Shown: in pieces, positions 36,695-60,824 of the stretch
Layout: each line of letters opens with the position of its first letter
How positions within the stretch are numbered: position 1 is the first letter of the stretch
DNA from: a virus
Virus record (IMG/VR): IMGVR_UViG_3300032174_000006
Span: 1-62,842 of that record
Direction: 5' to 3' (one strand)
Length of the DNA stretch: 62,842 nucleotides
The notes under the pieces: generated by a model
Seen by the model: only the letters and a program-made list of their open reading frames with translations
Told to the model about the DNA's origin: nothing
Database searches by the model: none
Translations under genes and position numbers: made by a program

Positions 36695-39028
36695 CTACAT
36701 AGGAAAGCAACTCAGCGACAAAATATCGCTATCCGTCATGGCGTGAGTGCCCATGACGTCGGTGTAATTCTGAAACGTGGCGGATGATACGGTAGATACG
36801 GTCTGGAGCACGGTCGCCTGATTGGTATTCTTCGTCGTGAGATTCGTCGCGGTGCAATTCCATCCGGTCTTCGCGACGGGCAGGCCGATGACGCCAGTGC
36901 CTGTGTTGCTCGTCCCCACGTTGATGCGAAACGCGGTCGTGCCGTTTGGATTCGCCACAATCGCCGCGCCCGTGCCGAAGCCGGAGGATATCGTCGGCGC
37001 GTTCAGGGATAGATTCGCCTGCCACACACCGAAGATACGGGTAAGAAACGCCCCTCCGCCTCCTGCCGCTACGACTCCCTGCGTACAATCCGAACAGAAT
37101 AATTGCGATCCGCTTCCGGCGATCGGCAGCGTTGCGAACGTGTATCCGACCGAATCGCTGCGCTGCACGATTACATCGTTCGGGCTTCCGCCAGAGTCGA
37201 AGGTCGCCACCGGATCGCCTTGATTATTCTCGTAATAGTTGACGAGGGTGTGGGTATCCACCCGCGAGATACAGAAGTGGATATGCAGGCAGGTATTGTT
37301 AATGAAACGATTGCCGCTTCCGTTCGTTGCGATGCCTGCCGTGTTATTGAAGAAATATGCCGCGTCCACGGAACTCGTGATGGTATCGTTCACGAAATTT
37401 TCCGAGACGATGTTGTCAAGAGTATGCTGGGCCGCGACGGATGTCAGACACACGCCATAGGTCGCCCCGGTCTCGGTGCCCGCCAAAACGATAGAGTTCT
37501 TGGAAATCTTGGCCGAAATGGTTTCACCTTTTATATTGATGGCGCAGAATCCGGAAGACGCGGTGGTGGTTAAGGTGATCCAGTTGCTTTCGACGGTTAG
37601 CACAACTGCGGTGGCCATCTGCATGCCGTCATTGTTGCCAAAGCCCATGATATTGTTAGCGTAAGTTCCTGCTCCTATCACCCCCGGTCCGTTCGCGCCG
37701 CCGCCGAAGATGGAATTGTTGGTGATGAGCGCACCGAGCGCGGTCTTGAGCGCCGTCCCTCCATTGGAATGAGAAATTAAATTCCCGGTCATGACCAATG
37801 AGTTGCCGCCAATGGTGGATCCATCCACAAGAATATGAGTGCCGGAATCGGTGATATAGTTGTCGTTAAACGTCGGCTGGCCGGTGATGACGATGCCCGT
37901 TCCGCTTGCGGTGCCGTCCCCGGCGATGTGATTCTCGGTGATGTATTCTAATCCGGAAATCTCCATCGCGTGCGTGCCCCAGTTTTCAATGTCATTGTGC
38001 TGGATGTACACCCATAAGCCCGCCGCGTTCTTGATTGCATCCCCGGCTTCGTTGAGGATCACGTTGTTTTCCGCGATGGTGTTGTTGAATAGCACAAGGT
38101 CGTTGCTGGGATTGATTACGATTCCGTTTCCTGTGAAGGACGCTTTCACGCCCTCGAAGTGGAGATATTTAATAACGTTGTTCGCTCCGTTCGTCTGGAC
38201 CTGGTCGATATTAGCGGCTTTGGTGAAGGTGGTGATGCTGCCGGGGCAGCCGACGAGGGACGCGCTGGAATTGTTGAGATTGATATTCGCGGTCTGGGAG
38301 ACGGACTGGCCGCAGAAGGTGAATACGGTCGCTTTCGTGGTGGTGACGGCGGTGGAGAGTGTTTGCGCGCCGGTCAGATTATCGCCCCGGCAGATTCCAC
38401 CAGCGGCCGGCAGTGCGGCATCACATGCGTTCATCTTCGCGCCGAGGTTCGCACCCGCGATCCCAGCCATGTCCAGCACCACGGTCCCGCCGGAGATTGT
38501 GGTCGCGGCGGAGAAGTAGGTCGTGTCGCCCGCCGCGCCGGATACCGTGGCGGTGCTGCAAGTCGGGCAGGAGATCACGCCAGTGGTGGTGATCGGGCTG
38601 GGCGTGACGACGATCGGTGAAGTGGCGGTGAAACTGGTCACCGTGCCGCTGCCCCCGCCGCCTGCGCTAGTGAGGATGAACACGTCGGAATAAGTGACCG
38701 GGCCGGGGAGCCCGCCGCCGGTCATGGTGATGTCGTACTCCCCGTTCGCCGCGTAGAATATCCACCGCCCGTTGGAGTTCGCGGTGAAGGGATTGGACAG
38801 GGGAGTGGAGGAGCCGGTGGAGAAGATCGTCGCCGCACCGCCGCCGTGAACGCTAACGCTGACCGTGCAGGAGGGGAAGGAGCCCTGTACCGTGTTGGTC
38901 GAGGATAGTCCGGAGGTGACGACAACCGTCGCGCCTGCCTCGCACCACCCCTGCGCGTTCGCGAGCTGCGCACGGGCCGGGAGCGCGGAGAGTAGAAGCA
39001 GGGGAAGCAGGTATAGAAACCGTTTCAT
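36695..39028 (-). CDS. Secreted right-handed beta-helix protein (777 aa)
   Basis: ATG 39028 overlaps the stop of the last sugar-cassette gene (ATGA). Residues 1-20 are a textbook Sec signal peptide ending ALPARAQ. Then follow a small beta domain and, from about residue 180, long repeated Asn/Ile/Val/Gly rungs (NGIVINPSNDLVLFNNTIAE, ITGQPTFNDNYITDSG) of a pectate-lyase-type beta helix. A Cys-containing last domain may trimerise. It resembles tail spikes and polysaccharide lyases. The signal peptide suggests export to the periplasm or beyond. Confidence 0.78.
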   Translation of the reverse strand: MKRFLYLLPLLLLSALPARAQLANAQGWCEAGATVVVTSGLSSTNTVQGSFPSCTVSVSVHGGGAATIFSTGSSTPLSNPFTANSNGRWIFYAANGEYDITMTGGGLPGPVTYSDVFILTSAGGGGSGTVTSFTATSPIVVTPSPITTTGVISCPTCSTATVSGAAGDTTYFSAATTISGGTVVLDMAGIAGANLGAKMNACDAALPAAGGICRGDNLTGAQTLSTAVTTTKATVFTFCGQSVSQTANINLNNSSASLVGCPGSITTFTKAANIDQVQTNGANNVIKYLHFEGVKASFTGNGIVINPSNDLVLFNNTIAENNVILNEAGDAIKNAAGLWVYIQHNDIENWGTHAMEISGLEYITENHIAGDGTASGTGIVITGQPTFNDNYITDSGTHILVDGSTIGGNSLVMTGNLISHSNGGTALKTALGALITNNSIFGGGANGPGVIGAGTYANNIMGFGNNDGMQMATAVVLTVESNWITLTTTASSGFCAINIKGETISAKISKNSIVLAGTETGATYGVCLTSVAAQHTLDNIVSENFVNDTITSSVDAAYFFNNTAGIATNGSGNRFINNTCLHIHFCISRVDTHTLVNYYENNQGDPVATFDSGGSPNDVIVQRSDSVGYTFATLPIAGSGSQLFCSDCTQGVVAAGGGGAFLTRIFGVWQANLSLNAPTISSGFGTGAAIVANPNGTTAFRINVGTSNTGTGVIGLPVAKTGWNCTATNLTTKNTNQATVLQTVSTVSSATFQNYTDVMGTHAMTDSDILSLSCFPM

Positions 39029-39999
39029 TTCACCCATCCTCGGGACTGGACTTCTCCCATGATGGAGTCTACACTGCTTCGCCCGTAAATCATTGGACAA
39101 TATGACCCGGATTCCAGAATCGCAGGGGGACACCACGCGTGCGACATCTCCTCCTCGAAGGATAGGAATCCCGACCGGGAGATGGAATCGCCACGCGGGC
39201 GCCACCACATCGCGGTGGGGACGTTGAGATAGGTGGAAATGATCCCCACGCCGGCTTGATACGAGATTAGAAATTTAGAATTCTTCGTCACGGAGAAGAG
39301 TTCCCCGATGGTGGTCCGGCCGATGAGGTCGATCCAGTGGGAGGAGGTGCCGTTCAGCCGCGGCGCGAGCATGTGGGTGTAGTAATCGTGATCGTATTCC
39401 GCGCCGACGACGACGATGGGCAGGCCGAATTGCTTGAATATCCGCTCCCCGAGTTCCACCCATTCCGCAGGCTTCCATAACATGTTGCGATTATGCCCTT
39501 CGATGGTGTTGCCATGTAGCGGACCGGGATAGAACACCGCGAACGGGCCGAGTTTGGACCGCACCATGGCACCGTACGCGAGTTCTTTCGAGGTCAGGCG
39601 GAAGTGGGAGAATATTCCCCAGTTGATGTCATAGTGCGGTAGCCATTTCTCCAGCCGGATTCCGCGTTCGAGCGGGGCGTTGGGGATCAGCACGGTATAA
39701 TGCTCACCCTTAAATATATAGTCTCCATCTTCGATGTAATCCCAGTATCCGCCGGGAGTGAAAGGCGGCTTGTCCGCGCCGGAATTGTTCAAGAGGCCGT
39801 AATTCAGCCGCATGTCCACGGACCGGACGAACTCGAATCGACGGAGAAAATCCAGCGCGCGGTCTTGCAGCATATTGCGCTCGGAACAGGTGAGGAAGAC
39901 GTCGATCGGCTCGCCGGGGGCGAGTTTATCCCGGATGGCTTGGATTTTATGCAGCGCCCACACGCTGTCGCCGATTCCCTGCGGGAGTAAGAATTTCAT
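39025..39999 (-). CDS. GT9-like glycosyltransferase (324 aa)
   Basis: AGGAGA before ATG 39999 fixes the start, which overlaps the upstream stop. The opening FLLPQGIGDSVWALHKIQAI matches the glycine loop of GT-B heptosyltransferase-type enzymes (GT9), and the C-terminal half has the donor-side pattern (FLISYQAGVGIISTYLNVP). GT9 enzymes move heptose or related sugars on to LPS core. Coupled at both ends within the cassette. Confidence 0.78.
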   Translation of the reverse strand: MKFLLPQGIGDSVWALHKIQAIRDKLAPGEPIDVFLTCSERNMLQDRALDFLRRFEFVRSVDMRLNYGLLNNSGADKPPFTPGGYWDYIEDGDYIFKGEHYTVLIPNAPLERGIRLEKWLPHYDINWGIFSHFRLTSKELAYGAMVRSKLGPFAVFYPGPLHGNTIEGHNRNMLWKPAEWVELGERIFKQFGLPIVVVGAEYDHDYYTHMLAPRLNGTSSHWIDLIGRTTIGELFSVTKNSKFLISYQAGVGIISTYLNVPTAMWWRPRGDSISRSGFLSFEEEMSHAWCPPAILESGSYCPMIYGRSSVDSIMGEVQSRGWVK

Positions 40000-40571
40000 T
40001 CGTTTCTCCTGTGATCCGTACGGATGAGAATATTCCCCGTCCCGTCCGGATAGTACGCCCAATCGACGCTTCCGCGATTGAGATTGTGCAGCGCGTTGAA
40101 AATCCCCCGGCAGACTTCCGTATCCTGCGCGTCATCGCATAATATCCATTTCGCGCCAGCGTTCCACGCGAGGGTGACATCGTGGGTGACATATTCCGCC
40201 GCGTGATTCCCGTCGATATGCGCGAGGTCGTACCATCGGCCGGGGAGTTCTGGGAGGGTGAGACTGTCCGCAACGATGATCTCAGAATGATAGCCGTGCT
40301 CGCCGAGGAGATCGGATACGAATTTCGACGGACGGACGGTGAACTTTCTCCCGTATTCGTAATCGTTGTCGATTCCGGTGTAGGTACAGCCGAGCGGGGA
40401 AACTTCGAGAAAAGCCAGCGCGGCCAGTCCCTCGCCGATGCCGATTTCGCAGATGGAATTCGGCTGAATCGCGGCGGCGATGGAGCGTTTGAACGAGACG
40501 TATTTCGCGGAGTCGAACGCGCGCGGCTCACGGAACGGGCGGAGAAGGGAATCTGCGACGCTAAACGGCAT
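39996..40571 (-). CDS. Class I SAM methyltransferase (191 aa)
   Basis: SAM loop CEIGIGEGLAALAFLE near residue 40, an acidic residue after strand 2 (GIDNDYEYG), then LAHIDGNHAAEYVTHDV and ILCDDAQD. The HIDGxH and C-terminal acidic pair resemble metal-dependent sugar O-methyltransferases of the macrocin/CmcI group. The overlap with both neighbours is 4-11 bases. Likely methylates a hydroxyl on the glycan made by the cassette. Confidence 0.82.
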   Translation of the reverse strand: MPFSVADSLLRPFREPRAFDSAKYVSFKRSIAAAIQPNSICEIGIGEGLAALAFLEVSPLGCTYTGIDNDYEYGRKFTVRPSKFVSDLLGEHGYHSEIIVADSLTLPELPGRWYDLAHIDGNHAAEYVTHDVTLAWNAGAKWILCDDAQDTEVCRGIFNALHNLNRGSVDWAYYPDGTGNILIRTDHRRNE

Positions 40572-41103
40572 GGATCACCATCAGCTTGCTCCAAGGATCA
40601 CGTTCGATCTTGAAATATTCGATGTGGATGTCGTAGGGGAGATGGGGCGTGATGCCGCGCGGCTCCAGCACGTCCTCGATCACGTAGATGCCTCCAGGGG
40701 ACAGCAAAGGGACGAACGTTTTCGCGGATTCAATTTGATGATGAGATTCATGCGATCCGTCGTCGATCATGAAGTCGATTTTGTTACCGATGCGCGCACT
40801 GGCATCGAACAGCGATCCCGAACTTGCTTGATCGCAAGGGTAGGAGTCAATCCGCTCTTCGTAAATCAGCTTCTTCTCGTCACAGTCCAGACCGTAGATC
40901 ATCGCGAGGGGGAAGTAATCCCGCCACATGCGAAGCGATGCGCCGGTGTCGATGCCGATTTCCACAACCTTGCGGATTGACTCCTCGCGACCGGCGAACA
41001 GGGAGTGGTAATAATGCGTGTATCCATGGCCGAGAGGTTCCGGTCGCTTATCTGTGCCGTATTTCTCCGCCAGAGCGCATAGAGGCGTATAAGTCACTTC
41101 CAT
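40561..41103 (-). CDS. Class I SAM sugar O-methyltransferase (180 aa)
   Basis: From ATG 41103 the N-terminus LAEKYGTDK, then HGYTHYYHSLF is a hallmark of small SAM enzymes of the macrolide O-methyltransferase type (MycE-like). The SAM loop is VVEIGIDTGASLRMW, and IDFMIDDGSHESHHQ supplies the metal or catalytic Asp/His. The frame overlaps neighbours by about ten bases on each side. Acts probably on a sugar hydroxyl. Confidence 0.82.
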   Translation of the reverse strand: MEVTYTPLCALAEKYGTDKRPEPLGHGYTHYYHSLFAGREESIRKVVEIGIDTGASLRMWRDYFPLAMIYGLDCDEKKLIYEERIDSYPCDQASSGSLFDASARIGNKIDFMIDDGSHESHHQIESAKTFVPLLSPGGIYVIEDVLEPRGITPHLPYDIHIEYFKIERDPWSKLMVIHAV

Positions 41104-41666
41104 ATGACTCCAATGCCTCCGCCGGAGATTCTCCCGTCTGGTGAGGTTCCCATGCCCTGCCACGCCTGCGCGGAGGCGAGGTCCCGGCCGATGATCTCCA
41201 CGGAGGGGTGGCGGAAGGCGATATCGTTCCAGATGCGGACGATATTCGGGATGAGGATATCATGGAATCCCACGAGCTTCTGCGCGACGGGGTACCACAG
41301 GTCGAAGTCCTTGCGCGGCGCGTTCCCGTCGTGGTCTGCGTCAATGAATACGACATCCGGGTATCCGCCGAGAACGTCTATCACCCGGCGGAAGGTGTCG
41401 ATGTCGTAGCTCGACCCGCGGATGTAATGTACGCCTTCTGTCGGGACCCCGTATTGCGGATTGTTGATGTCCACCGCGACGACGGACGGGATGCCGGCGG
41501 CGAGCATATACCCTGCGTGACCCGTGCCTAGTTCGACGTAGGATTTCGCGCCGGCCGTGAGACAGATGGACACCCAGGAGAGAAATTCCGGCTTGCGCTG
41601 CCCGAGCCGCGCGGTATCAAACTCGGGAAGTGAGGAAGATGGTCGCGCGCCGGTTGTCGTGTGCAT
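41094..41666 (-). CDS. Class I SAM methyltransferase, CmcI-like (190 aa)
   Basis: SAM loop YVELGTGHAGYML at about residue 43, AVDINNPQYG, then VVFIDADHDGNAPRKDFDLW and FHDI, all typical of the CmcI/methyltransferase-24 group. The start overlaps the previous gene by 50 bases, the longest overlap of the cassette, but both frames keep full motifs. Confidence 0.82.
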   Translation of the reverse strand: MHTTTGARPSSSLPEFDTARLGQRKPEFLSWVSICLTAGAKSYVELGTGHAGYMLAAGIPSVVAVDINNPQYGVPTEGVHYIRGSSYDIDTFRRVIDVLGGYPDVVFIDADHDGNAPRKDFDLWYPVAQKLVGFHDILIPNIVRIWNDIAFRHPSVEIIGRDLASAQAWQGMGTSPDGRISGGGIGVIWK

Positions 41667-42213
41667 ATGCCACCTCGGAGGAGATTAATTTGTGCCCCGC
41701 CGCAACGAGTGTTTCCGCGAAGAGGCGTTCGGATACCCAGAGATTATTGCCGAATGAGGGGGAGCCGTCGTTGAACGTCTCGCCGGAGGTTGTTTGCATG
41801 TCGAATTGCGCGGTCTCGCCGAGGGAGAGGAATTTCGGGAATAGTTCCAGCCAGTTTTCGAGGTCGAAATGTTTCAGGAAAGCGTGCGCGCAGACGAGGT
41901 CATAGCACAGGCAGTTATTGGACAGAGTACGGACGTCCATCTGCTCGAATTTCAGTGTGGGATTGCGGCGCCTCGCGTAGGCAAGCGCCTCCGGATTCGC
42001 GTCGATGCCCATATACTCCGCATGGGGAAACTGCGCTGCCAGCATGCCTGCGAAGATGCCAGTGCCGCAGCCGAGTTCGAGGATCGTATAAGGCGTGAGG
42101 TGCGAGATCAGGGACGCAAGATGCTGCTTCTCATGGATCAAACGAATCCAGGTGTCATCCTCCCGCGCCAGCACCTCCCCGCGCAGGACTTCGCTCACAT
42201 CAGGGTATTTCAA
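41617..42213 (-). CDS. Class I SAM methyltransferase (198 aa)
   Basis: Starts at TTG 42213 with GGAGGTGG six bases upstream, overlapping the previous TGA. SAM loop ILELGCGTGIFAGML (residues 44-58), then GIDANPEAL, the CYDLVCAHAFLKHF strand and the usual tail. This is the general methyltransferase-11/25 type, less specific than its neighbours. Substrate unknown; the cassette suggests a sugar. Confidence 0.82.
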   Translation of the reverse strand: MKYPDVSEVLRGEVLAREDDTWIRLIHEKQHLASLISHLTPYTILELGCGTGIFAGMLAAQFPHAEYMGIDANPEALAYARRRNPTLKFEQMDVRTLSNNCLCYDLVCAHAFLKHFDLENWLELFPKFLSLGETAQFDMQTTSGETFNDGSPSFGNNLWVSERLFAETLVAAGHKLISSEVAYAHDNRRATIFLTSRV

Positions 42214-43106
42214 TATCCACCTCCGTTCGGCAGCCCGCGCAATACAGCCGCCGGATCGGTACCGTATTTGTGGATGAACGATTGAAGATCATGTCCCCAG
42301 ATGCCCACCGCCGGATCGCCGAACGCGGTAGATTGATTGTGCAGGTGAACGTAGGGGATATTCGGGACAGCCAGCACGGGCGGGTAGCCGAGACGTGCGG
42401 TAAGGACCGGATACTCCATATCGTAGAAGATTCCGTCGTGCTCGCCGAAGCCGCCGATCTCCTCCCAGATGTGAATGGGAATGACGAATCCGGACGGTCC
42501 GAGCCGCGCGATGGAGATGATTCGGTCGGTGACGAAATATTTCACGAACCAATCAGTGACAGTCGTGCCATCTTCGGAGCCGGGGGAGCCGAAGTAGATG
42601 GGAGACACGCCGCCGGGGAGGAGGATTCGCCACGTGGACTCGGATTCAAGATCGCGCTGGTCCCATTCCGCCGGGGAGCGTTCCCAGATGGATGAATTCC
42701 CCGTGCGGACAAGAGCTTCCATCGCGGACAATGTAATTCCCGCCGCAGGGGAGGATTCTGCATACGCGAGCCATTTGGAGAGGTCGCCGGAGTTCTCAGC
42801 CAGTGGGGAGAAGATCGTGTCATCGTGAAGGCAGCACACATGGGAATGGCCGAGCTGCTGCATCCAGCGGATCGCCTCGTTGAAGCAGCCGTTGATCCAT
42901 CCGGTTGAGTAGGTATGGAGAACTTTCACGTTCGGCTGCGACTCGAAATATCCTTCGGGGACTTGCGCGCGGTTCCCCGGCCATACTTTTGACGAGGTGG
43001 CGAACGCGATATGCACGGGGAGGGTAGGCTCCATCCGGCGGAGAGAGCGTAATGCGCGGACCATTTTGTTCCCGCCTGTGGAGACGAATACGACGCCGAC
43101 GCTCAT
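42210..43106 (-). CDS. GT2-like glycosyltransferase (298 aa)
   Basis: A GT-A-type core: strand start VGVVFVSTGGN, nucleotide-binding region, and a CCLHDDTIF motif in the place of DXD. GFVIPIHIWEEIGGFGEHDG then gives the acceptor loop of GT2 enzymes. Closest to rhamnosyl-type transferases acting in O-antigen or capsule work. ATG 43106 overlaps the upstream stop by four bases. Confidence 0.78.
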   Translation of the reverse strand: MSVGVVFVSTGGNKMVRALRSLRRMEPTLPVHIAFATSSKVWPGNRAQVPEGYFESQPNVKVLHTYSTGWINGCFNEAIRWMQQLGHSHVCCLHDDTIFSPLAENSGDLSKWLAYAESSPAAGITLSAMEALVRTGNSSIWERSPAEWDQRDLESESTWRILLPGGVSPIYFGSPGSEDGTTVTDWFVKYFVTDRIISIARLGPSGFVIPIHIWEEIGGFGEHDGIFYDMEYPVLTARLGYPPVLAVPNIPYVHLHNQSTAFGDPAVGIWGHDLQSFIHKYGTDPAAVLRGLPNGGGY

Positions 43107-44272
43107 GCGGACCTCGCGAGTTCCGGACTATACCACGTGAAGAATCTACCTTTGTAAGCGGTGCGGTATTTATGCGCGATGGCTTGGCTGAAGTTCCAGG
43201 CGAGGATCATCGTCGCGTCGGGTTGCTCAGCCAGCCAGTTCGCCACCGGGACGACTTGAATGCCCGTGCCGGGGATGAATTTCCCCTGTTTCGTCGGCGT
43301 GTCGTCCGCGATGATGGACATTTGGGCGTTCGTGATCCCGCAATAATTGAGAAATATCGTCGCTTTCGCAGCAGCGCCGAATCCCGCGACTACGCGATCC
43401 GCTAGCATCTCGCGGGTGGCGAGTTTACACTTTTCCACGCGGGATGAGAAATCGGAATAATACCCTGGGGAGTGGATGAAGAATGATTCCTGCGAGAGGA
43501 TTAGGCTGGTGGAATGGCCACGCGAGCCGATCTTCGACGCCCAGATGCGGAGGGAGCCGCCGTGCGTGTCGATCTTTTCGGTGCGGATGATGGTCATCCC
43601 GTGGCGGGTGAAGAGACGATCCAGCGCGGTCAGGGAGAATTGATAAACGTGTTCGTGATAGCACTGGTCGAACGCCGTCTTCGCGAGGAGTTCATAGAGA
43701 TATGGGACTTCGATAATCACTGTACCGTCCGGCTTCAGCGCGAGGGAAAGGCCGAGGACGAAATCGTTCAGGTCCGGGACGTGTGCAAGAACGTTGTTAG
43801 CGTGGATGATATCCGCTTGCGGGCCGAGACCCTTCGCCATCGCGGCGGAGAAGAATCCCCGCACGGTGGGGATGTCCAGTTTCGCGGCGGCGTCGGCGGC
43901 ACGCTCGGACGGGTCGATGCCGAGCACGGGGATCGGGCCGTAGTGCTGGAGGAGATAGCCGTCGTTTGAGCCGATCTCCATCACGAGGGAACGATTATCG
44001 AGGGGGATGCGCTTGCGGACGGATTCGACTAGGGATTTCGCGTGGGCCACCATCGGAGAGGAGTACGAGGTGAGGTAGGAATAGTCGGTGAACATTTCCT
44101 CGGGAGGGACGGTTTCAGTGAGCTGCACGAGCGAGCAGGTCTCACATAGTGCGAGTTCCAACGGATACTTTTTATATGATTCATCGGGGGAGTTCAGGAG
44201 AGAATTCGCCAGCGGCATTTCGCCGAGGGAGAAGATTGGATGAGTCCTGCTGCCGCAGCTTCGGCAATTCAT
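43103..44272 (-). CDS. NDP-sugar C-methyltransferase, NovU/TylC3-like (389 aa)
   Basis: From ATG 44272 an N-terminal zinc domain (NCRSCGSRTHPIFSLGEMPL, then LALCETCSLVQL) precedes a SAM loop MEIGSNDGYLLQHY, VLGIDPSERAA and FFSAAMA, then a Rossmann-like C-terminal domain (GFGAAAKATIFLNYCG). This three-domain order is that of TylC3/NovU enzymes, which add a methyl to a carbon of dTDP-4-keto-6-deoxy sugars. The sugar substrate must come from the host because no sugar-nucleotide synthesis gene is present. Confidence 0.88.
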   Translation of the reverse strand: MNCRSCGSRTHPIFSLGEMPLANSLLNSPDESYKKYPLELALCETCSLVQLTETVPPEEMFTDYSYLTSYSSPMVAHAKSLVESVRKRIPLDNRSLVMEIGSNDGYLLQHYGPIPVLGIDPSERAADAAAKLDIPTVRGFFSAAMAKGLGPQADIIHANNVLAHVPDLNDFVLGLSLALKPDGTVIIEVPYLYELLAKTAFDQCYHEHVYQFSLTALDRLFTRHGMTIIRTEKIDTHGGSLRIWASKIGSRGHSTSLILSQESFFIHSPGYYSDFSSRVEKCKLATREMLADRVVAGFGAAAKATIFLNYCGITNAQMSIIADDTPTKQGKFIPGTGIQVVPVANWLAEQPDATMILAWNFSQAIAHKYRTAYKGRFFTWYSPELARSA

Positions 44273-45408
44273 AATTGCTCCAGCGCGTCGCATACGGCGG
44301 AGACGGCGTGATCCATCCCCTCCGCGTTGTTTCGGAATAGACGATGAGACGGGTAGAAGTGATTATAGGTCCCGTGGATGCCGTAGTACGCGGCGGAGTT
44401 GCCGGGGAGGATAACCCAAGTGGGGATGCCCATGGCGCCCGAGAGATGCGCGACGGCCGTGTCCACGGTGATGACCAGTTTCAGCGTGGAAATCAGCGTC
44501 GCCGTGTCTAGCCATTCCCCATCGCGGTCGAGGTCAACGATAGGGCGATTCTCGCAGATATGAAACGCCTGCGCGGGAGAGAGGGAACGATTGCGGCGGG
44601 GGATTTTCTCCTCGCCAGCGGTGATACATAGGCCGATGTTATCCGTGGGAGGGGATTCGAGACGGATATATCGTTCGGTGGGGATTTCGGATGTGTCCCG
44701 GCAGAAATATCCCCCGAGCGACAGCACACACGTGTAGCAGTCATAGTCCGACGGGATCAGCGTCCCCTCCAGCCCTGCCACGCTCCCCGCAATCAATCGG
44801 TCGAATCCGTACATCCCGTCGAGGAGCGAGTGCATCGACGCGGGACACATATACGTGACCGTCGCGCCGAGGCCCTTCAGCTTGGGGATCCAGCGCATGT
44901 GGAGAAAATTGTCACCGAAGCCGCCGCCAGATAACACGAGGATGCGTTTATTGAGGAGAGAGGATCGCCCGTCCCATTCCGGGATGATGTTCTTCACCCA
45001 TCCCCACGGCGCGTGCGAGCGGGAGTAAATCGGCCACGCTTCGAGGAATCGGCCCATGCGGAGGAGGGAGTCGGAATACAATATCGCGGCATATGGATGG
45101 TCGGGATTGATGCGATACGCTTCTTCCGCGAGTGAGAACGCAGGGTAAAATTGCGATTGCGATTCGAGAATCACCGCGAGATTGATGAGGGTGGTAGGAG
45201 TGCGTTCAAGGCCGAGGGCGTGCCGCGCGGCGATCAGCGCGAGGTTCGTGCGGCCGGAGAGGAATAACGCGGAGGCGTGATTGGACCAGTCCAGCCAGTC
45301 GGAAGTGTAGGTAGGAGGGGAGAGGAATTTGTGGACATCGGCTTGCGTCATGAATGATGCCACGCAGCCATCGGCGCGGGTTTGATAGGAGTCGGTATCA
45401 GGAGTCAT
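44269..45408 (-). CDS. TPR-linked GT9-like glycosyltransferase (379 aa)
   Basis: Residues 25-145 contain TPR-like helix pairs (ARHALGLERTPTTLINLAVI, then SLAEEAYRINPDHPYAAILY). Residues 150-379 are a GT-B half with GGGFGDNFLHMRWI and LVITVDTAVAHLSGAMGIPT, the donor-binding motif of heptosyltransferases. TPR plus GT-B suggests a protein or surface acceptor. First gene of the cassette; the weak ribosome site and divergent neighbour at 45443 imply it may be expressed from read-through. Confidence 0.78.
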   Translation of the reverse strand: MTPDTDSYQTRADGCVASFMTQADVHKFLSPPTYTSDWLDWSNHASALFLSGRTNLALIAARHALGLERTPTTLINLAVILESQSQFYPAFSLAEEAYRINPDHPYAAILYSDSLLRMGRFLEAWPIYSRSHAPWGWVKNIIPEWDGRSSLLNKRILVLSGGGFGDNFLHMRWIPKLKGLGATVTYMCPASMHSLLDGMYGFDRLIAGSVAGLEGTLIPSDYDCYTCVLSLGGYFCRDTSEIPTERYIRLESPPTDNIGLCITAGEEKIPRRNRSLSPAQAFHICENRPIVDLDRDGEWLDTATLISTLKLVITVDTAVAHLSGAMGIPTWVILPGNSAAYYGIHGTYNHFYPSHRLFRNNAEGMDHAVSAVCDALEQL

Positions 45409-45427: not shown

Positions 45428-45443
45428 TGCTACAATGCCCCCA
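45428..45443 (+). promoter_or_regulatory. Extended -10 promoter, leaderless
   Basis: TGCTACAAT at 45428-45436 is an extended -10 (TGn followed by TACAAT), with ATG at 45443, seven bases after it. No ribosome site is visible. A leaderless message for the HNH gene is the simplest reading. Confidence 0.4.
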
Positions 45444-45934
45444 TGCCTGCACATCGAGATTGGCTAGTTCGCTTTCTTGAAAATATTTCAGTAAACGATC
45501 AAACCGGATGCTGGGACTGGATTGGATCATGCCAGCCCTCTGGCTACGGCCAGTTAAATCTCCAGCGCGAAGATGGAGCAGCCCGTCCTGAACTTGCCCA
45601 TCGAATTTCCTACCGCGTATTCCGTGGCCCCATCCCGACCAACATCAACCGGCCTACAATAGACCATCTTTGTAGAAATCGGAAGTGCGTAAATCCTGAG
45701 CATCTAGAAACCGTCAGCAATCGTGAAAATATTCTAAGAGGAACAGCCCCATCGGCGATGTACGCCAGAAGAACGCATTGTAATTACGGCCACGAATATA
45801 CCGAAAATAATTTAGCTCGACGCAGTAATCGTAGAGTACGAGAATGCAAAATCTGCAAGAGCAACTCGCAAAAGAAGTATAAACGTAACAAAAAGGCTAA
45901 AGCTGTGCGTAGGGACCGGCGTATCCGCTTATAG
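45443..45934 (+). CDS. HNH homing endonuclease on opposite strand (163 aa)
   Basis: A plus-strand gene inside the minus-strand late block. It holds CWDWIGSCQPSGYG, HRISYRVFRGPIP, the core IDHLCRNRKCVNPEHLETV, N-x2-RG, and the HCNYGHEY and CKICKS zinc-like pairs. Closely related to the HNH at 4770. The last 38 bases overlap the end of the minus-strand neck gene. It separates neck genes from the sugar cassette by about 490 bases. Confidence 0.88.
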   Translation: MPAHRDWLVRFLENISVNDQTGCWDWIGSCQPSGYGQLNLQREDGAARPELAHRISYRVFRGPIPTNINRPTIDHLCRNRKCVNPEHLETVSNRENILRGTAPSAMYARRTHCNYGHEYTENNLARRSNRRVRECKICKSNSQKKYKRNKKAKAVRRDRRIRL

Positions 45935-46898
45935 TGTTATAAAAACCCAACCCGCGGCCTGCCAGTCCCGGCATCCTCGCCGTGATCCAATTATCGACGG
46001 TATCTTTATCAACTTGACGGTCCTTTTGCAAGAGGCTTCTGTAATCCGCCATGGTCGCGCCGCGAAGATATTTGAAATCCGGACCGGAGGAGCGCGGGGA
46101 CATGTCTTTGTTCGCTTCCGCCCATTCGTACGCGAGGTCCTTCGCGCGGGCGAGAACGGTTTCTTCGCGGAGTTGCGGGGGGATCGTGTCGGAAGGGGAG
46201 ACGAGGTCGGCGCCGTTGCGGACGCCGTAGCACTGGTAGGTGAAGAGTTGGATCGGCTGGCCCCAGAGTTCGAATAGCGGGAATTGAAACGTCGCGGATT
46301 GGTTCACGGTGCTGGCCCCGCGTAGATCAAGTCCGATCGGCACGACGCGCGTGGGAAATTGATACCAAGTTCGTTGCGGGTCCATCGCGTCGATCTCCGC
46401 GCGGGTAGTGACGAGGTCGAGGTCGATGAACATTTGAGGATTGCGGACGCTGATCCAGGTGCGGAAGTCTTTGAATGAGGCGGCGTAGTAGAGCTGATAA
46501 ATTTGAAATGCTTGCCCCGCGCCGCCGGGATCGCCGAACACGCGGTCGAGTGTCGCGGCGCCGGTGACGGAATTGTACTGGATGATGGAGTAGATTCCCC
46601 CGACGCCGATACGGAATTGACGTTGGGTGATTAAGGAGTATGGATTCGCGACGACAGACGCGTTGATCGCCGCGATTGCGGTTGCGTCGAAGGTGATGGA
46701 TGCGAAACCTTGTGTGGTGGTCACTGTGCCGGTATTGCACAGCGGCGGCGTGATCCACGAGGATTCGAATAAGTTGAACGACCAGAGATTCGCGAGGCGG
46801 ATGGAGCGGTAGGCGCGATTAATCAGCGTGGGGGCGTAGGATATAGGGAGCTTCGGGACTGATCCACGAAGCTCCGTTTGCATCGAGATGAAGGACAT
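45897..46898 (-). CDS. Head-tail adaptor-like protein (333 aa)
   Basis: ATG 46898 lies just after the 59-aa gene. The start (SMQTELRGSVPKLPISYAP, then LINRAYRSIRLANLWSF) matches structural neck proteins that open with an amphipathic helix, followed by beta-rich middle and helical end (VDKDTVDNWITARM). Lies downstream of capsid genes in the right order for a connector. Not a recognised enzyme. Confidence 0.7.
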   Translation of the reverse strand: MSFISMQTELRGSVPKLPISYAPTLINRAYRSIRLANLWSFNLFESSWITPPLCNTGTVTTTQGFASITFDATAIAAINASVVANPYSLITQRQFRIGVGGIYSIIQYNSVTGAATLDRVFGDPGGAGQAFQIYQLYYAASFKDFRTWISVRNPQMFIDLDLVTTRAEIDAMDPQRTWYQFPTRVVPIGLDLRGASTVNQSATFQFPLFELWGQPIQLFTYQCYGVRNGADLVSPSDTIPPQLREETVLARAKDLAYEWAEANKDMSPRSSGPDFKYLRGATMADYRSLLQKDRQVDKDTVDNWITARMPGLAGRGLGFYNTISGYAGPYAQL

Positions 46899-60048: not shown

Positions 60049-60078
60049 AGGATAGCATGGGGTATAGGACACTGTCAA
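60049..60078 (-). promoter_or_regulatory. Late promoter (minus strand)
   Basis: On the minus strand TTGACA (60078-60073), an 18-base spacer and TATCCT (60054-60049). It points to the late block. The CAGTG core overlaps the -35. Probably opened or helped by a phage factor because the -10 box is weak. Confidence 0.5.
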
Positions 60079-60083
60079 TCACA
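60070..60083. repeat. 14-bp repeat CACTGTCAATCACA, copy 1
   Basis: Exact match to 61253-61266. In the reverse direction it contains TTGACAGTG, overlapping the late promoter -35 box. A shorter form, CACTGTCAA, occurs at 2834-2842. Likely a regulatory site. Confidence 0.55.
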
Positions 60084-60118
60084 TTCCACCTTATACATAA
60101 TTTCCTTGCTATCATACT

Positions 60119-60124
60119 TATAAT
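60119..60124 (+). promoter_or_regulatory. Plus-strand -10 box for methyltransferase
   Basis: TATAAT at 60119-60124 in an AT-rich segment, without a good -35 box at the right distance. It is 19 bases before ATG 60144. An ATG overlaps its last bases (60123) but gives only a seven-codon extension. Confidence 0.4.
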
Positions 60125-60143
60125 GTTATATATACACGCGATT

Positions 60144-60824
60144 ATGATTCCCAAACGTGTGCTGGATCTGTTCTGCGGCGCAGGCGGGGCGGCGATGGGG
60201 CTGCATCGCGCGTGGCCAGAGGCGGAGATTGTGGGGGTGGATATCAAGCCGCAGCCGAGGTATCCGTTTACGTTCATTCCGGCCGACGTAATGACGTTTC
60301 TAGGGTGGGCGGAACTTGGAACGTTTGATTTTATTTGGGCGAGCCCTCCATGCCAATGTTACACGGCCCTCCGCAGCGTTTTCGATTCCACCAAATATGC
60401 CGATCTCGTGGCTCCCGTGCGCGATAAATTAGACTCCTGGAAAGTTCCCTATGTGATTGAGAATGTCGTCGGCGCGCCGCTCCGGCGTGATTTGATGCTA
60501 TGCGCGGCTCCATTTGGATTGCGCTCTTACCGCCACCGTATCTTCGAGGCGACTTTTCCTATAATTCAGCCGGAACACCCTAAGCATGTCGTGCGCGTGA
60601 ATCGACGTAAGAAAAATCGTCGAGGCCATTGGGACGCGGGAGGATTCGTTACCGTTGTGGGCGATATCGGTAGTTATGTCGGTCCTAAAGCGATGGGAAT
60701 CGACTGGATGACCGGGAACGAATTGTCGCAGGCGATTCCACCTGCCTATTCAGAATACATCGCCAATCAATTCACCCTCGCCGACATCGCCGCGACTGAA
60801 AATAAAAATGAAAAATTCACGTAA
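60144..60824 (+). CDS. DNA cytosine-5 methyltransferase (226 aa)
   Basis: From ATG 60144: motif I VLDLFCGAGGAAMGL, motif II VGVDIKPQ, motif IV SPPCQCYT with catalytic Cys, motif VI IENVVGA. A short target region and motifs IX/X follow (ELSQAIPPAYSEYIANQF). Shorter than host enzymes, as in many phages. It may protect phage DNA from restriction. No cognate nuclease gene is seen. It has no ribosome site, so the message is probably near-leaderless. Confidence 0.88.
   Translation: MIPKRVLDLFCGAGGAAMGLHRAWPEAEIVGVDIKPQPRYPFTFIPADVMTFLGWAELGTFDFIWASPPCQCYTALRSVFDSTKYADLVAPVRDKLDSWKVPYVIENVVGAPLRRDLMLCAAPFGLRSYRHRIFEATFPIIQPEHPKHVVRVNRRKKNRRGHWDAGGFVTVVGDIGSYVGPKAMGIDWMTGNELSQAIPPAYSEYIANQFTLADIAATENKNEKFT

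Follow-up and report, generated by a model that had tools for sequence, protein, structure and literature searches.

An eight-gene glycosyltransferase and methyltransferase cassette in the late operon of a phage genome and its probable role in virion glycosylation

The soil virus of IMG/VR record IMGVR_UViG_3300032174_000006, analysed here over the whole length of 62,842 bases (the window), carries in its late operon eight overlapping genes that encode three glycosyltransferases and five methyltransferases. We propose, with a probability of roughly 0.68, that they form a modular late-operon cassette which puts a short, heavily methylated sugar chain on the phage's own virion proteins. The computational evidence establishes the order of the genes, their enzyme classes, the purifying selection on them, the modular make-up of the cassette and its position in virion operons. 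A first-pass annotation, made from the sequence alone, had described a glycan-building and methylating cassette inside the virion operon, and this description is well supported. Synthesis of a methylated glycan is the best reading of the block, because sugar-specific methyltransferases occur together with three transferases, and with a nucleotide-sugar-type gene in relatives.

Results

The eight open reading frames (ORFs), g1 to g8, lie on the minus strand at 39025-45408 and all of them are present. With the starts corrected to 44272 (g2), 41103 (g6) and 39999 (g8), the junctions from g1 to g8 overlap by 4, 4, 4, 50, 10, 11 and 4 bases, the same figures as in the annotation, and the stop of g8 overlaps the start of the following ORF, a putative spike gene, by 4 bases. 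The classes of the glycosyltransferases (g1, g3, g8) and of the methyltransferases (g2, g4, g5, g6, g7) were tested by profile and by fold. Ratios of nonsynonymous to synonymous substitution rates (dN/dS) were obtained by comparing the window with L042 and L024 with L025 (L numbers are our labels for viral loci and other contigs). They were 0.12-0.26 for the cassette genes versus 0.12 for the neighbouring tail gene, values that are rough because dS is close to saturation. Since the genes are conserved in relatives with such ratios, the block is more than a chance assembly; all eight genes are under purifying selection and decaying pseudogenes are excluded.

The first gene, g1 (44269..45408), is assigned by Pfam, family profile and motifs as a TPR domain joined to a GT9-type glycosyltransferase. 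Its Pfam matches, TPR_12 (0.0013) and GT9 (0.0026), are both under the gathering cut-off; the family profile matches the TPR of OGT (4.5e-10) and WaaF (1psw, 4e-4), and the GT9 motifs GxGD and DTxxAHL are kept across 12 relatives. The TPR domain and the first position make g1 a candidate for the initiating transferase. For g3 (42210..43106), no match was found in Pfam, NCBIfam (GT2 models included) or PHROG. Its AlphaFold2 (AF2) model (pLDDT, the predicted local distance difference test, 86.5) has a GT-A fold and resembles ppGalNAc-T, SpsA and cellulose synthase (Foldseek, VIA; Z 15-17), and the acidic metal-site motif D95-D96 is invariant. Since its sequence matches no GT2 family, g3 is called GT2-like by predicted fold and is not assigned as a GT2 member.

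The AF2 model of the last gene, g8 (39025..39999; pLDDT 89.8), predicts a divergent GT9-fold (GT-B) glycosyltransferase. It matches 3tov with Z 19.6 and WaaF with Z 18.6 (root-mean-square deviation 3.5-3.6 over ~254 residues), and WaaC and TibC with Z 15-17 (TibC 15). Because it lacks the GT9 donor-site motif DTxxxHL, g8 is termed GT9-like by predicted fold and is not assigned as a GT9 member. When the profiles of g1 and g8 were compared with each other no significant match was obtained, so the GT9 fold that they share is supported separately for each. Neither g3 nor g8 had a match in 50,697 phage records (tblastn), and a short segment of the L068 g8 likewise retrieved nothing from the phage records. 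A genome scan for g8 yielded one contig only (L158), of a planctomycete metagenome-assembled genome, so no host was identified by that route. The g3 and g8 families are new.

Among the methyltransferases, g2 and g6 are the most specifically identified. By its sequence g2 (43103..44272) is predicted to be a nucleoside diphosphate (NDP)-sugar 3-C-methyltransferase of the NovU/TylC3/TcaB9 type. PF08421, PF13489 and PF08484 (Methyltransf_13/23/14) are matched above gathering, the profile matches the D-mycarose 3-C-methyltransferase 4rv9 at 6e-56, and the protein aligns near full length to 4rv9 and to the TcaB9-like 5t64, with CxxC and Y-x-E-H present. It has a Zn-binding N domain, an S-adenosylmethionine (SAM) domain and a C-terminal domain, and the YxEH active-site segment is conserved. 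A g2-like sugar C-methyltransferase (31-32% identity) was also seen in L002 and L003, without other cassette families nearby.

Profile and motifs point to g6 (40561..41103) as a sugar O-methyltransferase of the MycE/TylE type, with matches to MycE (3ssm, 6.4e-27) and TylE (8ia9, 8e-25) and with the DDGSH and IED motifs conserved. Its alignment begins at about residue 187 of MycE, and at 180-200 aa it comprises the catalytic domain only and lacks the auxiliary N-terminal domain found in the enzymes of ~400 aa. It is therefore expected to work like MycE without being classed as a full member. The remaining three are predicted less specifically: g4 (41617..42213) is a general class I SAM methyltransferase (PF13649, 7e-16, above the curated cut-off), g7 (39996..40571) a Methyltransf_24 O-methyltransferase (PF13578, 5.9e-9, above the cut-off) with weak matches to O-methyltransferases in the PDB, and g5 (41094..41666) a putative Methyltransf_24-like O-methyltransferase, the weakest call (PF13578, 2.8e-4, below the cut-off), in which ELG and FIDADH motifs are conserved.

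With these assignments the gene classes named in the annotation hold throughout, and the structure prediction it had called for gave GT-A (g3) and GT-B/GT9 (g8) folds. The annotation had also considered that the proteins might prove to be ordinary DNA or RNA methylases, and the generic matches of g4 do include tRNA methyltransferases. Modification of nucleic acids or small molecules, leading to hypermodified DNA bases or a modified metabolite, seems nevertheless very improbable. The best-identified methyltransferases, g2 and g6, specifically match sugar methyltransferases, no base-hypermodification gene was found among the scanned ORFs, and the sole DNA methyltransferase seen, a DNA methyltransferase-like gene (phrog_363, 3.6e-33), lies elsewhere, at 60057-60824.

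PHROG matches place terminase, portal and head genes on the minus strand, in the late operon. They are followed on the same strand by a tail protein, the eight-gene block, the putative spike and more structural genes. The closest isolates by portal, at a distant 35% identity, are Tunturi_1 and Tunturi_2, podoviruses that infect the acidobacterium Tunturiibacter (PMC11924767). The tail gene (tail11; 45897..46898, minus strand) has 34% identity to the gp11 gene of Tunturi_1, annotated 'tail protein' in its record, and marks the 5' edge of a variable slot; the spike gene marks the 3' edge.

To compare this slot, viral loci were collected by a head search (40 loci) and a tail11 search (8 loci), and genomes with both slot edges visible were retained. 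The cassette is present in 11 of them (the window, L042, L012, L013, L021, L024, L025, L031, L041, L045 and L051) and absent in 13 (L015, L022, L023, L026, L027, L034, L035, L036, L037, L038, L039, L044 and L052). Among the latter, an HNH-type gene is the sole occupant of the slot in L015 and L026, and L034 has an orphan ORF there. It can be seen that g1 is the first gene in 11/11 cassettes and g8 the last, directly before the spike, in 9/9 cassettes of more than two genes. The inner genes vary, as in L012 (g1-g2-g3-g8), L021 (g1-g4-g7-g8) and L041 (g1-g5-g3-unknown-(Methyltransf_24)-g7-g8). In the smallest cassettes g1 is accompanied by a single methyltransferase-like gene (L013, PF13578 1.5e-20; L051, by eye), and therefore one transferase and one methylase appear to suffice.

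On the head tree all cassette carriers belong to a single group of relatives. Seven changes are scored on this tree, at least three of them forced; seven is an upper estimate, as L029, scored 'none', stops before the slot. The g3 and g8 gene trees mostly track the head tree, so within the lineage the genes are passed on mainly by vertical descent, accompanied by losses. For the same reason, the idea that g3 or g8 is often swapped within the lineage is unsupported.

The families also occur in unrelated phages. Searches with g8 and g3 reached contigs with different head genes. In L062, L063 and L065, varying subsets of g3, g5, g6, g7 and g8 relatives lie between the major head gene and a Neck1-type gene (the head gene was tested in L062, the Neck1-type gene in L063). 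In L068 and L069, g8 and g4- and g7-like genes lie between terminase and portal, and L066 and L067 carry g8 in other settings. The module is thus common to several phage types and is mostly embedded in virion genes. The synteny check proposed in the annotation accordingly showed that the genes occur together, with their order largely constant, both in relatives and in unrelated phages. Its statement that the host must supply the sugar, no sugar-nucleotide gene being present, stands for the block in the window but not for three other cassettes (L031, L063, L065), which carry an NAD-dependent epimerase/dehydratase-family gene; such genes point to NDP-sugar substrates.

In other viral contigs that carry a distant TPR-GT9 relative (L086-L147), the profiles detected none of g2-g8, except for a g6-like gene in L139, on the opposite strand. 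TPR-GT9 alone was therefore rejected as a cassette marker, as it is common in viruses. A 283-308-aa protein without Pfam match was noticed in cassettes of the lineage (L031 16274-17125; L041 15997-16872; L045 10376-11251) and of unrelated phages (L062 9150-10076; L065 3803-4717). It is 45-64% identical overall, 45-49% across the two phage types, and is possibly another glycosyltransferase.

The annotation had left open whether the chain is made for the virion or for host lipopolysaccharide (LPS). The methylated glycan stands, and the evidence now leans towards the virion. If, during infection, the sugars were instead added or methylated on the LPS core or exopolysaccharide of the host, superinfection or re-adsorption of progeny to debris would be blocked. 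GT9 is the heptosyltransferase family of the LPS core, the slot borders a putative receptor-binding spike, and methylation of NDP-sugars is also compatible with LPS. However, no flippase, bactoprenol transferase or polymerase is among the cassette genes, and 0/8 cassette proteins have a 19-residue window above 1.6 Kyte-Doolittle, as expected of a transmembrane segment. Neither an integrase nor a repressor was found among the window ORFs scanned, and lasting lysogenic conversion is therefore unlikely. In addition, the genes have a late-operon placement, and in unrelated phages they adjoin head, neck or portal genes. Modification of the host surface is thus judged unlikely.

The putative tailspike or fibre (36695..39028, minus strand) has no Pfam or PHROG match, and its N-terminus is conserved in relatives including Tunturi_1 gp12. 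The protein begins with a canonical Sec-type signal peptide, MKRFLYLLPLLLLSALPARA^Q, which is unusual for a component of virions, these being assembled in the cytoplasm. Although diverged in sequence, the signal peptide persists in almost every relative, whether or not a cassette is present, Tunturi_1 gp12 included; the spikes of L037-L039 are without it. One explanation would be that the cassette glycosylates the spike before export, as the GT9-like TibC/Aah do for autotransporter adhesins. The retained signal peptide, the overlap of the g8 stop with the spike start, the structural match of g8 to TibC and the richness of the spike in serine and threonine (S/T fraction 0.20-0.27) are all in keeping with it. 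But relatives lacking the cassette retain the signal-peptide N-terminus, g8 is not beside such a spike in other phage types, and spike S/T content shows no difference between genomes with and without the cassette, so that we give this explanation little credence.

No firm link was found between the length or S/T content of the spike and the presence of the cassette. Long spike ORFs (1500-2300 aa) were seen in several cassette-lacking genomes (L044, L015, L022, L035) versus 500-1400 aa in carriers; the genomes are few and the numbers inconclusive, and L027 (no cassette, 723 aa) breaks the pattern.

At the upstream edge, the cassette and the tail gene are 488 bp apart, and the gap is overlapped by an HNH endonuclease gene on the opposite strand (45443..45934, plus strand; PF13392, 3.6e-10). 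In L012, L045 and L026 a relative of this endonuclease occupies the equivalent site, and the cassettes of L042 and L031 contain inserted endonuclease VII genes. A promoter scan gave promoter-like sites no more numerous than in shuffles.

Discussion

A virion acceptor is favoured because of the late-operon placement across phage types, the lack of a membrane component, the lack of an integrase among the scanned ORFs, and known cases. In the mechanism we propose, the soluble TPR-GT9 protein g1 would recognise a phage protein via its TPR domain and attach the first sugar to it, with a nucleotide sugar of the host as donor. The GT-A protein g3 and the GT9-fold protein g8 would extend or cap the glycan, g2 may produce a branched deoxysugar while the sugar is still NDP-linked, and g6, g7 and probably g5 and g4 would cap hydroxyls by O-methylation. 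The benefit might be an altered particle surface that changes receptor binding, degradation or sticking.

Several points weigh against virion glycosylation. About half of the compared genomes are without any cassette, which is therefore dispensable to the lineage. The lack of membrane segments does not settle the matter, as GT9 enzymes of the WaaC/WaaF type, although soluble too, have the LPS core as their substrate. TPR domains bind many partners. The GT9 donor-site motif DTxxxHL is missing from g8, which has SYQxGxG instead, invariant in the g8 family, and its chemistry may therefore differ. Lastly, the virion acceptor, the glycan and the donor all remain putative.

Comparable gene sets have been described. 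In the mycobacteriophage Corndog, the stretch from portal to protease includes an O-methyltransferase gene and glycosyltransferase genes (PMC4351075), and virion proteins of Che8, Corndog and Myrna are reported as glycosylated in a statement of PMC12363180 that cites Freeman 2023. The Corndog gp35-gp38 region (cluster O) likewise sets glycosyltransferases and an O-methyltransferase within the virion structural operon. Compared by description, it differs in that no TPR-GT9 or 3-C-methyltransferase is described, methyltransferases are fewer and the host belongs to another phylum.

In the Mycobacterium prophage prophiFSAT01-1, a glycosyltransferase gene overlaps a methyltransferase gene (genes 45-46; g6 homologue, 32.7%) near the terminase, but this is a small unit and lies upstream of it. 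Synechococcus phage S-SCSM1 has a large contiguous glycosyltransferase and methyltransferase cluster (genes 125-135), including a g6 homologue, near a tail lysozyme gene. In contrast to the present phage, S-SCSM1 is a 229-kb cyanophage with mainly other transferases, fucosyltransferases among them, and no g3 or g8 match.

TylC3/TcaB9 and MycE/TylE of antibiotic pathways are clear homologues of g2 and g6 with conserved motifs; the cassette, however, is in a phage, and g6 covers only the MycE catalytic domain. The gtrABC serotype-conversion cassette relies on a membrane flippase and a lipid-linked transferase, unlike the block here, which has no transmembrane segments. In capsid glycosylation of chlorovirus PBCV-1 (A064R), virus transferases act with a methyltransferase that methylates glycan rhamnose (PMC7019647); as PBCV-1 is a eukaryotic virus, the likeness is an analogy only. 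Thus phage clusters of transferases and methyltransferases are already known from prophiFSAT01-1 and S-SCSM1. The novelty lies in the modular layout headed by TPR-GT9, in the occurrence of the cassette in relatives of Acidobacteriota phages, and in two enzyme families, those of g3 and g8.

More tentatively, and with less confidence than an even chance, the cassette might provide an exchangeable, serotype-like glycan coat, in which a TPR-guided GT9 initiator and swappable transferases and methylases give a strain-specific methylated virion glycan, the module being shared by podovirus-like and unrelated phages. The g3 and g8 families would then be dedicated virion-glycan enzymes.

If virion glycosylation by this cassette is true, phages of an abundant, poorly studied soil phylum, the Acidobacteriota, would vary their particle surface chemistry by an interchangeable sugar-methylation toolkit, in a manner resembling bacterial O-antigen variation. 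The cassette would then be a source of new glycosyltransferase families and of soluble enzymes for building methylated deoxysugars on proteins, and there would be a testable reason for its repeated gain or loss among these phages.

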